The notes beneath the pieces are model-generated. The model saw only the letters and a program-made list of their open reading frames with translations. It ran no database searches and was not told where the DNA came from. Both the position numbers and the translations under genes were made by a program. A DNA stretch of 64,000 nt from Amycolatopsis thermophila (GTDB lineage: Bacteria > Actinomycetota > Actinomycetes > Mycobacteriales > Pseudonocardiaceae): the NCBI RefSeq assembly GCF_030814215.1, contig NZ_JAUSUT010000001.1, positions 6,138,001 to 6,202,000 on the forward strand, in the 5' to 3' direction. Shown here piece after piece: positions 24,431-38,298 of the stretch (position 1 is its first letter; every line of letters starts with the position of its first letter).

Positions 24431-26566
24431 ATGGCCACCCGACCTGCCTCCGACAGCCTCGTCCTCGCCGGGCGCCCCTTCCCCCTGGGCGCGCACCCCG
24501 AGGGCGGGGGTGTCCGGTTCGCCGTGACCTCGACCGTCGCCGACGCCGTGGAGGTCTGCCTGATCAGCGAGGACGGCACGGAGCGGCGGGTCGAGCTGAC
24601 CGAGCGGACCTTCGGGGTGTGGCACGGGCTGGTGCCCGGCGTGACGTCGGGCCAGAAGTACGGCTACCGCGTGCACGGCCCGTACGACCCGTCGCGCGGC
24701 CTGCGGTGCAACCCGAACAAGATCCTCGTCGACCCGTACGCCACCCGGATCTCGGGCGGCCTGACCGACCTCGACGCCGCACTGGGGTACGCGGGCGATC
24801 CCATGCACCACCGCCGCTCCAAGGTCGACTCGCTGGGCAGCGTGCCGCTGTCCGTGGTCACCTCGCACGGCGGGCCGGACACCGGCGCGAAGCCGGAGGT
24901 GCCGTTCGAGGAGTCGGTCCTCTACGAGTTGCACGTCAAGGGCTTCACGCAGCGGCACCCGGAGATCCCGCCGAACCTGCGCGGCACCTACCTGGGCCTG
25001 GCGCACCCGGCGGCGATCGAGCACCTGGTGCGGCTCGGGGTCACCGCCGTGGAGCTGCTGCCCGTGCACTGGTTCACCGAGGAGCCCTACCTGGTGCGCA
25101 CCGGGCGGAAGAACTACTGGGGCTACTCGCCGCTGGGCTACTTCGCACCGCACGCCGGGTACGCCACCGAGCCCGGGCGGGAGGTGGCCGAGTTCCGCAC
25201 CATGGTCGCCGCGCTGCACGCCGCCAACATCGAGGTCATCCTCGACGTGGTGTTCAACCACACCTGCGAGGGCGGCCTGGACGGGCCGACGCTGTCCTTC
25301 CGCGGCCTGGACGCCCCGGCCTACTACCTGCACGCCGGGCGCGGCCACGCGATCGACCTCACCGGCTGCGGCAACACCCTGGAGCCGCGTTCGCCCACGG
25401 TCATCCGGCTGGTCACCGACTCGCTGCGGTACTGGGCGACCGAGATGGGCGTCGACGGGTTCCGGTTCGACCTCGCCAGCACGCTGGGGCGGCCGGGCGG
25501 CGGCGCGTTCGACCGCGATTCGGCGATGCTGACCGCGATCACGGCCGATCCGGTGCTGTCCCGGTGCAAGCTGATCGCCGAGCCGTGGGACGTCACCGGC
25601 CACGGCTACCGGGTGGGCGACTTCGGGGCCCAGTGGGCGGAGTGGAACGGCCGCTACCGCGACACGGTGCGCGACTTCTGGCGCGGCGCGGTCAGCGTGG
25701 ACGACCTGGCGTTCCGGCTGTCCGGGTCGTCGGACCTCTACGACCACAACCTGCGCCGCCCGTGGCAGTCGATCAACTTCGTGACGGCGCACGACGGTTT
25801 CACGTTGCGGGATCTGGTGTCCTACAACGACAAGCACAACGAGGCCAACGGTGAGGACAACCGCGACGGCACCAACGACAACCGGTCGTGGAACCACGGC
25901 GCCGAGGGCGAGACGGACGATCCGGAGATCCGCGCGCTGCGGGCCCGCCAGGCGCGCAACCTGCTCGCCACGCTGCTGCTGTCGACGGGCACGCCGATGC
26001 TCGTCGCGGGCGACGAGCTGTGGCGCACCCAGGGCGGCAACAACAACGCCTACTGCCTGGACGACGAGACGTCGTGGCTGGACTGGTCCGGCGACCCCGA
26101 CGCGACGGCGATGCTGGCGTTCACGCGCCGGCTGGTGCACCTGCGGGCCGCCAGTCCCGCGCTGAGGCAGCCGGAGTTCTTCGAGGGCCGCACGACACCC
26201 ACCGGGCGCCCCGACCTGATCTGGTTCCGCCCGGACGGGGAGGAGATGACGGAGGAGGACTGGTTCGACGGCGGCCGGCGCACGCTGATGATGTGGATCG
26301 ACGGGTCGAACAGCCAGTCCCGCACCCGCGAGGGCGAACTGATCGCCGACCACTCGTGGCTGCTGATCCTGCACGCGGGCGACGAACCGGCGAAGGTGGT
26401 CCTCCCCGGGCCCGAGTTCGGAGCCACCCTGAAGCCGACGCTGGACACCACCACCCCCGACGGGAGCCCCGCCACGCCGGGCACGCTGACGGCCGGCAGC
26501 CGCGTGACGCTGCGCCCGCGATCACTCCTGCTGCTGCGAGCGCCCCGCGACATCCCGGAGCGCTGA
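24431..26566 (+). CDS. glgX: Glycogen debranching enzyme GlgX (second copy)
   Basis: 711 residues, paralogous to the copy at 18306-20423 and sharing long identical blocks (YGYRVHGPYDPSRGLRCNPN, GEDNRDGTNDNRSWN in similar form). Catalytic residues are Asp347 (GFRFDLAST), Glu384 (LIAEPWD) and Asp455 (TAHDGFT). The N-terminus differs by about 12 extra residues before the CBM48. It lies 34 nt after treZ and is probably read from the same transcript, although its own weak promoter cannot be excluded. Two debranching enzymes in one cluster may separate trehalose formation from general glycogen turnover; that is inference. Confidence 0.93.
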   Translation: MATRPASDSLVLAGRPFPLGAHPEGGGVRFAVTSTVADAVEVCLISEDGTERRVELTERTFGVWHGLVPGVTSGQKYGYRVHGPYDPSRGLRCNPNKILVDPYATRISGGLTDLDAALGYAGDPMHHRRSKVDSLGSVPLSVVTSHGGPDTGAKPEVPFEESVLYELHVKGFTQRHPEIPPNLRGTYLGLAHPAAIEHLVRLGVTAVELLPVHWFTEEPYLVRTGRKNYWGYSPLGYFAPHAGYATEPGREVAEFRTMVAALHAANIEVILDVVFNHTCEGGLDGPTLSFRGLDAPAYYLHAGRGHAIDLTGCGNTLEPRSPTVIRLVTDSLRYWATEMGVDGFRFDLASTLGRPGGGAFDRDSAMLTAITADPVLSRCKLIAEPWDVTGHGYRVGDFGAQWAEWNGRYRDTVRDFWRGAVSVDDLAFRLSGSSDLYDHNLRRPWQSINFVTAHDGFTLRDLVSYNDKHNEANGEDNRDGTNDNRSWNHGAEGETDDPEIRALRARQARNLLATLLLSTGTPMLVAGDELWRTQGGNNNAYCLDDETSWLDWSGDPDATAMLAFTRRLVHLRAASPALRQPEFFEGRTTPTGRPDLIWFRPDGEEMTEEDWFDGGRRTLMMWIDGSNSQSRTREGELIADHSWLLILHAGDEPAKVVLPGPEFGATLKPTLDTTTPDGSPATPGTLTAGSRVTLRPRSLLLLRAPRDIPER

Positions 26567-27571
26567 CACCCCGGACGCCCGGACAACCGGCTCCCGCGAA
26601 CACCGCCGGACGCTGCGGGCCGCTCCCCGATCGCCGGGCCCCCGATCTCCGGGCGCACCGCGGAGCAGCGGCTCGCGAAGCGCGCCGCCCCCGGCCGGGC
26701 ACATCGGGCGGCGCCCGCGCCGCCGCTCGCGAGCGCCGGGCCGACCGGGTGGGTGGGGCGCGCGCTGCTGCCCGCGAAGGTGCCGCGACCGGAACCCGGC
26801 GCGAACCAGCCGGGCGAACCCTGCGGGCCGGCTGGTCGCCGCCCGCCAGCGCCGCGCCCGGCGTCCGCCGGAGACGCGGGGCGCGCCGCGAGCGGCACGG
26901 GCACTCACCCGGCGCAGGACACAGCCGGAAATTCCGTCGACCCGACCCGACCCGACCCGCCACGCACAGCGCCGTCTTCCTGTCCCGGGCGCCCCTGCCC
27001 GGGGCACGCCTCCCCCGCACCCGGGCACGCGTTCCGCCGCCACGCTCCGGGCACGCCTCCGCCCCGCCGGACCTTCCGAACCTCCCCCGCACCCGCCGCA
27101 TCCCGGGACGCGCCCCCGCCCCGCCGAACCTTCCGAACTTCCCCACACCCGCCGCACCCCGGGGCACGCCTCCCGCCGCCGCGCTCCGGGCACGCACCCG
27201 CCGGACCTTCCGCCAATCCCGGCAGCATCCGCAAACCCGGTTACCCGCCAGTACGCCCACCGGCCCGAATCCCGCGGAGCGGCAAGCCCTTTCAAGCTGA
27301 CGCCCGTTGGAGTTACCCGGCTTGCCTGAACGCCGTCGAAGGGCCGAAAGTGCACTCCGGAAGGCCCCGGAGCGAACCGGGCCGTGACGCCTGGGTTACC
27401 AGTCGATGACCACACTGGACACACGTGGCCCCCCGACGGAAAGTGGCACCCGAGGCGGTAGTTTGCGCACGTTCGCGGCTGGGTACTTCCTTTCGAAGAC
27501 CTGCACGTCCCCCACCGGGTCGTCGGGTGAGGCTGCACTACCACACAACTCGGGTGAGAGGGGCTCTGCCG
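26567..27571. repeat. 1-kb GC-rich gap before glgE containing degenerate repeats
   Basis: No credible gene lies here: open frames are Pro/Arg/Ala-rich low-complexity shadows. The stretch about 27001-27215 contains degenerate repeats. The core CCGCCGGACCTTCCGAA occurs at 27064 and, with one or two changes, at 27121 and 27198; GGGGCACGCCTCCC and GCTCCGGGCACGC each occur twice, flanking these cores. The last 270 bp (about 27300-27571) is less GC-rich and probably holds the glgE promoter, but I could not fix -35/-10 boxes with confidence. Function of the repeats is unknown. Confidence 0.55.
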
Positions 27572-29551
<1,980 letters not shown>

Positions 29552-35892: not shown

Positions 35893-35962
35893 TCACAGTC
35901 ATCCACCACCGCTTCGGGCACTGCCGCTCTGGTGCCCCACCTCACCGGGAAGGGGACCGGCC

Positions 35963-36415
35963 ATGAGTGTCGATCACGACCTGGGCACCAAGCGCCCGGG
36001 TACCACGCCGATGGACTACCGCCGCGTGTTCGGCTGGCCGGTCCACTGGCAGAACGGCTCCCTCAATTTCGTGATCGGGGCCGGGATCGGCGCCGTCGCG
36101 GTGCCGCGGGCCCGGGCCGAGCAGGTGCTGGAGCACCTGACGCGGCAGGGTTGCCGCGGGCCGGCGCTGAGTGTGCCCACCAAGCACGGTTCGGTGGTGA
36201 TCTTCCTCGTCGAGGCCGACATCCTGGGCAGCGACGCCGAGTTCCTGCCGCGCGACGTGCGGGTGCTGACGGCCGGCACCTCGGTGCCGATGCCGGGCAC
36301 CCACGGCCCGGCCGACCTGGCGCGCTGGATCGTGCCGCCGGACCCGCAGCAGCGGTGGCTGCCGAGCCTGACGGCGGTCCTGGCCGCCATCCGGTCCGCG
36401 GGCCGCTACCGCTGA
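35963..36415 (+). CDS. Hypothetical protein divergent from the TetR regulator
   Basis: 150 residues, soluble, no signal or membrane segment. It opens MSVDHDLGTKRPG and continues with YRRVFGWPVHW, FVIGAGIGAVAVP and a conserved-looking C-terminal RWIVPPDPQQRWLP. I have seen similar small actinobacterial proteins described as resembling the N-terminal part of bifunctional primase/polymerases, but no catalytic acidic triad is evident here, so I give no function. GGGAAGGGGA precedes ATG 35963. Control by the adjacent TetR protein is likely from the shared palindrome. The repeat array follows immediately. Confidence 0.8.
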   Translation: MSVDHDLGTKRPGTTPMDYRRVFGWPVHWQNGSLNFVIGAGIGAVAVPRARAEQVLEHLTRQGCRGPALSVPTKHGSVVIFLVEADILGSDAEFLPRDVRVLTAGTSVPMPGTHGPADLARWIVPPDPQQRWLPSLTAVLAAIRSAGRYR

Positions 36416-36419
36416 CGAA

Positions 36420-37010
36420 CGCGGCCCGCGCGGCGGCGCGCCCCCGGCGGCGCGAGCTCCGCAGGATCTGACAACACCCGCGGCCGACTCCCGCTCCGGG
36501 GCATGTTGCGGTTGCGGCGGCACGAGGTCCGGCGCGCCCATCGAAACAACCTCACCGGGGCGGCGGCCCGCTCCCGGGGGCGATGTTGCGGTTGCAGCGG
36601 AACAGGTTCCCAGGGTCACCCTCGGGCCGCCCGGACCGCGGCCCGCGCCGACGTGAGGATCCGGTTCCGGCGGCGTGAAGTCCGGGGCGCCCATCGAAAC
36701 ACCCTCGCCCCACCCGGGCCCCGGCCCGCGCCGACGCGAAGGCCCGATTGCGGCGGCGCGAGGTCCGGCGCACCCATCGAAACAACCCCACCCCACCCGA
36801 GGCGCCGCCCGCGCCGGAACGAGGGTCCGGTTGCGGCGGCGCGAGGTCCCGGGGGCGCCCACCGAAACACCCTTACCCGGGCGGCAGCCCGCGCGGGGGC
36901 GATTTTCAGCGGCAGCGAAACAGGTTCCCCGAGGCCACCCTCGGCGCCCACCCTCACCCCACCCGGGCCGCGGCCCGCGCGGGGGCGATGTTGCGGTTGA
37001 AACGGAACAG
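36420..37010. repeat. Degenerate tandem array (about 8 units, 66-86 bp) reaching into the 3' end of the FAD oxidoreductase gene
   Basis: Units are marked by CCCGC(G/T)C at 36424, 36490, 36567, 36642, 36725, 36808, 36888 and 36974; the steps are 66, 77, 75, 83, 83, 80 and 86 bp. Units at 36490, 36642, 36725 and 36808 share TTGCGGCGGCGCGAGGTCC and GGCGCCCATCGAAAC. Units at 36567 and 36888 instead resemble the coding end of the FAD oxidoreductase (GATGTTGCGG, CGGAACAGGTT); the native copy is at 36974. On the minus strand the 36567 unit still encodes DPGNLFRCNRNIAP, matching the true end DPRNLFRFNRNIAP. The period is not a multiple of 3, so it is not coding. This fills the gap 36416-36953. Confidence 0.8.
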
Positions 37011-38219
37011 GTTGCGCGGATCGTGGCGGGCCTTGAGGGTGGCCAGGCGCTCGTAGAGTTCCGGCTCGTAACCCGCCCGGGTCTGAGCCTCGCTCGCCGT
37101 GTCGGCGCCGCCGTACAGGAACGCCAGGTTGTGGCCCGTCGTCCAGGGCGCGAGGTCCCGCGCGACCCTCTCGTGCACGTCCCGGTCGTCCGGGCCCGAG
37201 ATCACCCGCACCGCGTAGCGCGCCGCCCGGTGGCCGACCATCGCCGGGCCCGGACGGCCCATCGCACCGCCCAGGTGGCGGATGTCGACCACCGCACCGA
37301 CCCCGGCCACGGCCTCCAGCGCTTCCGGCGCCAGGTCGCGCAGCAGGTGGTTCGTCGCCCGGTAGGCGTGCGGCTCGTCCGGATCACGGTGGATCGACGA
37401 CGTCTCCGCGTACGGCATCGTCCGCACCGTGTCGCTCAACCGCTCCCCCACCGCGCGCAACGGAGCCACCAGCCCCGCGTCGTGCACCAGCGACGCCACC
37501 CGCACCGACGCGATCCGCCCGGCGGGCCCCGGCACCAGCGTCACCGACGAGGTCACCTCCTCCCGCAGCGACTCCGTCCACTCGCGCCACACCTCCAGCA
37601 CCCGCGGGACCAACGGCGCGGCGAACACCAGCTGCCCGCCGAACACCGCCGGCACCTCCACCAGATCCACCTCGAGCGCGGTCACGACCCCGAAGTTCCC
37701 GCCGCTGCCCAGCACGGCGCCGAACAGCTCGTCGCCCGGCGCCAGACAACGCGACAGCCCGTCCGCGGTGACGATCTCGACGCGCCGCACGTGGTCGGCG
37801 GCGAACCCGAACCTCCGCCCCAGCAACCCGACTCCCCCGCCGAGCGTGTACCCGGCCACCCCGACCGACGGCGACGACCCATTCAGCGGCGCCAGGCCGT
37901 GCGCGGCCGCCGCTTCCACGAGCGCACCCGCCCGCACACCGGCCCCGACCCGGGCCGTCCGGCGCACCGGATCCACGTGCAGTTCCGTCAGCCGCCGCGT
38001 GCTGATGAGAACCCCGCCGTCGGCGGGGACCGACAACCCGTGCCCGGTCGCCTGCACCGCGACGGGCAGGTCCCGTTCCGCCGCGTGGACGACCGCACGC
38101 CGGACGTCCCCGGCGTCGCGCGCCGGAACGACCACCGCGGGCCGGTGCCGGTAGGCCGTCTGAAAACCGCGGACCTCGTCGTCGTAGCCGTCGTCGGCCC
38201 GTGTGAGCATCTCCACCAT
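36954..38219 (-). CDS. FAD-binding oxidoreductase (berberine bridge/6-hydroxynicotine oxidase type)
   Basis: 421 residues. The N-terminal FAD_binding_4 domain shows YRHRPAVVVPARDAGDVRRA, QATGHGLS (the His position often linked to FAD), GSSPSVGVAGYTLGGGVGLL and GSGGNFGVVTALE. The C-terminal BBE segment DPRNLFRFNRNIAP is canonical. Enzymes of this type oxidise alcohols, amines or sugars using O2. ATG 38219 is preferred over the in-frame start at 38255 because the family begins close to MLTRADDGYD. The gene's 3' end is the probable source of some units of the downstream repeat array. An NTF2-like gene lies 79 nt upstream. Confidence 0.9.
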   Translation of the reverse strand: MVEMLTRADDGYDDEVRGFQTAYRHRPAVVVPARDAGDVRRAVVHAAERDLPVAVQATGHGLSVPADGGVLISTRRLTELHVDPVRRTARVGAGVRAGALVEAAAAHGLAPLNGSSPSVGVAGYTLGGGVGLLGRRFGFAADHVRRVEIVTADGLSRCLAPGDELFGAVLGSGGNFGVVTALEVDLVEVPAVFGGQLVFAAPLVPRVLEVWREWTESLREEVTSSVTLVPGPAGRIASVRVASLVHDAGLVAPLRAVGERLSDTVRTMPYAETSSIHRDPDEPHAYRATNHLLRDLAPEALEAVAGVGAVVDIRHLGGAMGRPGPAMVGHRAARYAVRVISGPDDRDVHERVARDLAPWTTGHNLAFLYGGADTASEAQTRAGYEPELYERLATLKARHDPRNLFRFNRNIAPARAAARVG

Positions 38220-38298
38220 GCCCCCAGCCTCGGCCAGTGCGGGCCAGAAGTCCAAGAGCTGCTGGGTCTGCTGACCAGAACCAGCCGTTATGGCACGG

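Follow-up and report, generated by a model that had tools for sequence, protein, structure and literature searches.

The spacer between two convergent genes of the soil bacterium Amycolatopsis thermophila is probably a degenerate, locus-specific intergenic minisatellite, which was formed by repeated tandem duplication at the end of an oxidoreductase gene and is tolerated there. It lies within the stretch of 64,000 nucleotides that was analyzed as a whole (the window, at 6.138 to 6.202 Mb of the 7.3-Mb single-contig genome), in which the stop codons of an FAD/BBE gene and of a gene for a 150-amino-acid protein face each other with 538 bp between them (36416-36953). The whole spacer consists of degenerate direct repeats, down to about position 36421, adjoining the stop of the convergent gene at 36415 (Table 1). 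The FAD/BBE gene was assigned by its Pfam matches (FAD_binding_4, E 6e-25; BBE, E 5.5e-6, the latter match ending at residue 423 of 433), and its start is uncertain, with TTG 38255 and position 38219, the choice of the codon-based caller, as candidates. No Pfam family was detected at E 0.001 for the convergent neighbor.

Table 1. Genes and repeat units at the array (positions in the window)
Feature	Position	Strand	Basis and remarks
FAD-binding/BBE-domain oxidoreductase, source gene	36954..38255	minus	433 aa if TTG 38255 is the start; Pfam, ORF list
Convergent neighbor gene, 150 aa	35963..36415	plus	stop is the array boundary
Unit 0, array template: last 19 codons, stop and 27 bp of spacer	36927..37013	minus	alignment with A. 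deserti gene end
Unit 1, first downstream copy	36849..36926	minus	alignments; probably present in common ancestor with A. deserti
Unit 2	36766..36848	minus	alignment, shuffle test
Unit 3	36683..36765	minus	alignment, shuffle test
Unit 4	36609..36682	minus	alignment, shuffle test
Unit 5, copy nearest in sequence to the gene, still reads NLFRCNRNIAP	36530..36608	minus	ORF list, alignments
Unit 6, incomplete, diverged	36460..36529	minus	alignment, shuffle test
Unit 7, partial, adjoins the convergent gene	36421..36459	minus	weak: alignment alone, outside the shuffle test

Seven further copies of the 3' end of the FAD/BBE gene, the last two of them incomplete, follow each other head to tail in the downstream spacer. 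When cut at equivalent points, the units step by 87, 78, 83, 83, 74, 79, and 70 bp, followed by a 39-bp remnant. The tandem array with irregular steps that was reported in the initial annotation is therefore real, its steps ranging from 70 to 87 bp: Tandem Repeats Finder (TRF) assigned a score of 319 to positions 36617-36873, the top of 27 rows in the window, whereas 500 dinucleotide shuffles of 36416-36953 produced a single row with a period of at least 30, which scored 77. The last 90 nt of the gene aligned with the downstream spacer at a score of 77, as compared to a maximum of 37 in 1000 shuffles. Furthermore, each of units 0 to 6 aligns with the A. deserti gene end and the DNA following its stop (85 bp) better than 500 of 500 shuffles, so that the two interleaved unit types proposed initially reduce to one. 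The core GGCGCCCATCGAAAC corresponds to A. deserti post-stop DNA, and the gene-strand form GTTTCGATGGGCGCC aligns 3' of the stop codon. On these alignments, the repeat unit is the gene tail (last 19 codons) with its stop and about 27 bp of spacer, and the units differ mainly by the extent of their decay. It was also correctly noted that the minus strand spells GDPGNLFRCNRNIAP within the array, but not at about 320 bp past the gene end: this copy, unit 5, is 405 bp distant from its counterpart in the gene, and 320 bp is approximately the spacing between units 1 and 5. Marker 36888 is itself located beyond the stop codon (36954). A head-to-tail unit of tens of base pairs, repeated above chance in noncoding DNA between genes, is what is found in intergenic minisatellites, or VNTRs.

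Two open frames cross the spacer, one of 165 amino acids on the plus strand (36503-37000) and one of 306 amino acids on the minus strand (35942-36862), and speak for a reading in which it codes for a repeat protein or a C-terminal extension. Nevertheless, long open frames are expected at 76% G+C, which is the value of tail and spacer, and the codon-based caller placed no gene in the 538 bp. As had been argued initially from the nontriplet period, only two of the seven steps are divisible by three, and the other five shift the frame between units, which makes a coding spacer scarcely credible.

Units 5 and 6 resemble units 1 and 2 at 79% over 162 columns when shifted by 317 bp, suggesting a single block duplication. 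When compared to the gene end of a more distant congener (G008), unit 5 scores 55 and the present FAD/BBE gene 49; unit 5 thus seems to have been copied from an earlier state of the gene end, before the latest changes of the gene.

A search of 19 genomes of the genus identified a homologue at E 1e-60 in seven and an orthologue of at least 71% amino acid identity in four, A. thermophila included. Among these four an array is present in two and lacking in two. In the more distant congeners G008 and G018, the two genes are likewise paired, but their stops are only 4 and 9 bp apart, respectively, and there are no repeats, whereas A. deserti (G006), the FAD gene of which shares 86% amino acid identity, has a spacer of 537 bp with a differently built array (138-bp period, 2.5 copies). 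Aligned end to end, the 85 bp following the stop in A. thermophila and A. deserti score 59 against a shuffle maximum of 42, exceeding 2000 of 2000 shuffles. A local test over 90 bp for a first unit common to both species was negative, its score of 26 falling below the shuffle maximum of 31; given these opposite outcomes, the presence of unit 1 in both species is graded only as probable. The founding duplication probably occurred before the split from A. deserti and was followed by separate expansion. The spacers are of nearly equal length (538 and 537 bp) in spite of their differently built arrays, which would fit a length constraint; with two spacers, this is treated as a coincidence.

An origin of the array at the FAD gene 3' end, as initially suggested, is supported by the homology of units 0 to 6, the arrayless relatives, and the lack of dispersed copies among the 40 of 205 first-look candidates scored; slippage is the process that we infer from the sequences of different species, A. 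thermophila being represented by this strain. An ancestral tandem duplication across the stop codon would have left the gene intact and provided direct repeat copies of about 80 bp. From these, each species may have gained units independently through slipped-strand replication or unequal recombination, in one instance as a block of about 317 bp, and mutation would have worn the copies down at the same time. The array may persist since additional DNA is of little cost where two convergent genes end.

The initial annotation named a dispersed, genome-wide repeat as the finding that would speak against a tie to this gene end. A search of the 7.3-Mb genome for the unit, in which 40 of 205 first-look candidates were scored, found no such second place. 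Matches at E 10 or better numbered at least 42, namely, the array, the gene end, and 40 weak ones, the best of which reached E 0.003 over 38 bp; the reading as a dispersed repeat was rejected on this basis. Among the candidates scored, the unit was thus not found at many genomic places, unlike mycobacterial interspersed repetitive units (MIRUs). Within the family, 50 of 390 genomes match the array at E 1e-5 when the two best candidates per genome are scored. Beyond A. thermophila and A. deserti, eight of these matches extend past the gene end and the others fall on the coding tail. TRF (score of at least 100) detected no array in any of 10 excised matches, comprising those eight and two others, and open frames of at least 450 nt cross all 10; two further excised stretches, L186 and L187, were left out of this check. 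The presence of the unit in other family members was hence rejected, and these matches are taken for short G+C-rich similarities.

The FAD array is ordinary in kind and exemplifies a type of repeat found at scattered sites across the genome. In a sample of 1.664 Mb (the window and 80 further stretches), TRF with a score of at least 150 and a period of at least 30 identified 41 arrays. Of these, 29 lie outside called genes, which amounts to 17.4 per Mb with the FAD array counted; some of the 29 may be uncalled coding repeats, since 16 of their best periods are divisible by three. The gene caller was made for this analysis, and its start sites are rough. With about 17 arrays per Mb outside called genes in the sampled part of the genome, the initial view of the locus as unusual applies only in part. 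Corresponding numbers in relatives were 3 in 400 kb for A. deserti, 1 in 400 kb for G008, 4 in 200 kb for G112, none in 100 kb for G016, and 1 in 100 kb for G003; the A. deserti stretches came from one contig, and one of them deliberately includes the FAD locus, which is one of its three arrays. At the rate of the A. thermophila genome, at most one array in 400 kb would occur with P 0.007 and at most three with P 0.08. For one of the 29 arrays, no position between two genes could be assigned. Of the other 28, 12 lie in convergent gaps (7.1 expected by base pairs), 15 in co-directional gaps (13.8 expected), and 1 in a divergent gap (7.2 expected), corresponding to a convergent excess (P 0.03) and a divergent deficit (P 0.003). 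In co-directional gaps, the arrays are about equally often nearer the 5' and the 3' end (7 and 8). Their G+C content is 0.787, against 0.688 in gaps without arrays, and they are densest in the 2- to 5-Mb part of the contig (18 of 29).

This preference for convergent gaps, together with the position of the FAD array between convergent genes, is what would be expected if the array were retained as a multi-hairpin, two-way transcription stop or insulator. A G+C palindrome within the FAD/BBE gene end and two short-stemmed terminator-like sites on the minus strand, as compared to a mean of 0.3 in 50 shuffles, point in the same direction. The folding tests do not. Over 13 windows of 80 nt, the mean folding z was +0.12 on the strand of the gene, with one window below -2, and +0.33 on the opposite strand. 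A consensus fold of nine units (seven from A. thermophila, two from A. deserti) had double changes in 2 of 16 pairs, and Rfam at gathering thresholds returned no match in the window. Across the genome, array windows fold no better than convergent gaps without arrays (mean z of -0.43, n=87, and -0.69, n=82, respectively), and G008 and G018 manage without an array at this junction. A stable structure beyond composition that is kept across copies, as expected of an RNA element, was consequently not found. With no fold excess, little compensatory pairing, and no Rfam match, the data lend no support to the earlier proposal that the array is retained as a transcription-end or RNA structure element; the case for a terminator role is weak, the two short-stem sites being the sole hint of function, and we consider retention as a stop or insulator unlikely.

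Another question is whether gene tails are copied downstream at other loci. The last 90 nt of each gene were compared to the downstream gap and the first 90 nt to the upstream gap at a threshold score of 40, dropping genes below 300 bp, caller scores below 25, and gaps below 60 bp. In the A. thermophila sample, this score was reached at 5 of 535 3' ends and at none of 750 5' ends, with shuffles reaching 31 (Fisher's exact P 0.012). Adding G008, G112, G003, and G016 resulted in 8 of 798 3' ends and 1 of 1128 5' ends (P 0.005), the latter being a 5' end in G016 that scored 42. A. deserti was left out of this pooled test because its single hit (score 40, among 95) is the FAD locus itself. Copied ends were found at none of 184 3' ends and 1 of 241 5' ends (L029, score 58) at 79 related loci, mostly from other genera, the inclusion of which weakens the contrast to 8 of 982 against 2 of 1369 (P 0.02). 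The 3' bias is thus modest, resting on two genomes of the genus, and is not shown beyond the genus.

The tail copies of A. thermophila belong to the FAD gene, a SpoU methylase gene (L139; shift of 175, 94%), an APH-family gene (L154), and a MerR regulator gene (L239), and a weaker one, at the score threshold, to an amidase gene (L144). Junctions of three of these were compared in relatives by match coordinates only. A. deserti matches L139 continuously over gene and array (query 1-1480), whereas in G008, G018, and G016 the flanking matches are 60 to 89 bp apart, versus about 780 in A. thermophila, so that the array is absent from the same junction in three of the four relatives searched. The L239 gap of about 230 bp corresponds to 15 bp in A. 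deserti, 56 in G008, 49 in G018, and 503 in G016; that of L154, about 250 bp, corresponds to 456 bp in G016, and G008 and G018 lack the gene there. The L154 flanks are located on different contigs in A. deserti (C8 near 345199 and C11 near 159, at the contig start), as if the assembly had broken at the repeat.

A duplication across a stop spares the gene, but expression may be disturbed when the duplication spans a start region, so that selection alone could generate the 3' excess. Alternatively, tandem duplications in this lineage may favor gene 3' ends owing to breakage or stalling of replication by transcription termination or by convergent transcription, an idea to which we give little credence. 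Staggered nicks that are filled in and joined would offer a possible route, by which coding tails with their stops would be repeatedly copied downstream. If this were true, gene-end arrays would be the record of a transcription-coupled duplication process in bacteria.

Integrating elements of the attachment-site type duplicate gene 3' ends, and the copies could in principle be scars of an element that entered gene 3' ends and restored them. The tail copies in G016, at shifts of 180 to 352 bp with other DNA in between, would suit such attachment-site accretion. At the FAD locus, seven copies follow at steps of 70 to 87 bp without cargo, the unit contains post-stop DNA common to the A. deserti gene end, and a Pfam search of the FAD/BBE gene and three neighbors, with farther neighbors seen through the ORF list only, revealed no integrase or transposase family. 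An origin by integration is accordingly highly improbable, and tandem duplication at the gene end is the reading retained.

The rnc-fpg1 array of Mycobacterium tuberculosis (MIRU-VNTR/ETR) may be regarded as a close parallel. As described in the sections covered here, this gap contains 279 to 358 bp of repeats within the species complex and few bp in relatives outside it (PMC2734929). Like the FAD array, it is an actinobacterial tandem array between genes, with a unit length of the same order and a tiny gap in relatives. It runs from the rnc stop to the fpg1 start, its length being linked to fpg1 expression, whereas the FAD array separates convergent genes, and an origin from the upstream coding tail, shown for the FAD array, is not stated for rnc-fpg1 in those sections (PMC2734929). 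MIRUs are described there as 100-bp repeats at 41 locations, unlike the FAD array unit, for which no second place was found (PMC2734929). Archaeal Borg elements also carry many independent arrays, intergenic or coding, but their repeats are perfect, recently formed, and A-enriched, in contrast to the decayed, G+C-rich FAD array (PMC9879509). A survey of prokaryotic "satellites" lists 23 for A. mediterranei (2.25 per Mb), a density that is not comparable to ours because its criteria and the TRF threshold used here were not matched (PMC6749651). Some species in that survey have unique, unrelated arrays scattered in one genome, as observed here, and the part of it covered mentions no link to gene 3' ends (PMC6749651). 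Among the titles and abstract openings found in an open-access library, none indicated gene-tail-derived intergenic arrays in Amycolatopsis.

The single FAD locus matters little, being a decayed noncoding repeat that may serve as a strain marker. Of broader relevance are the duplications of coding tail and stop at several unrelated genes, with no such case seen at gene starts in the part of the genome that was sampled, which makes it possible to test whether tandem duplications in bacteria originate at the ends of transcription or are merely tolerated there. Annotators should also be warned that gene-like fragments just beyond a stop codon can be duplication debris.

Several further repeats were observed. 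A second degenerate intergenic array in the window (27002-27203; 57-bp period, score 187) has a CBM48/alpha-amylase-type gene (24431-26566) on one side and a glgE-type gene (27572-29551) on the other; at about 480 bp from the upstream stop, it is not an obvious copy of a gene tail. In G016, the gap downstream of the minus-strand gene at 4010-4366 of L261 contains a copy of the tail shifted by 352 bp, and an apparent long inverted repeat, seen by eye, lies between the tail copies, as if a palindromic element were inside the duplication. Finally, a G+C-rich repeat of about 69 bp in L239 (17935-18003) is dispersed, with seven other matches in the sampled stretches of the A. thermophila genome, namely, in L231, L158, L151, L118, and L150 over 65 to 68 columns and in L122 and L124 over about 30 columns. 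The matches in L122 and L150 overlap arrays, and the repeat also matches nine times in A. deserti and six times in G016.
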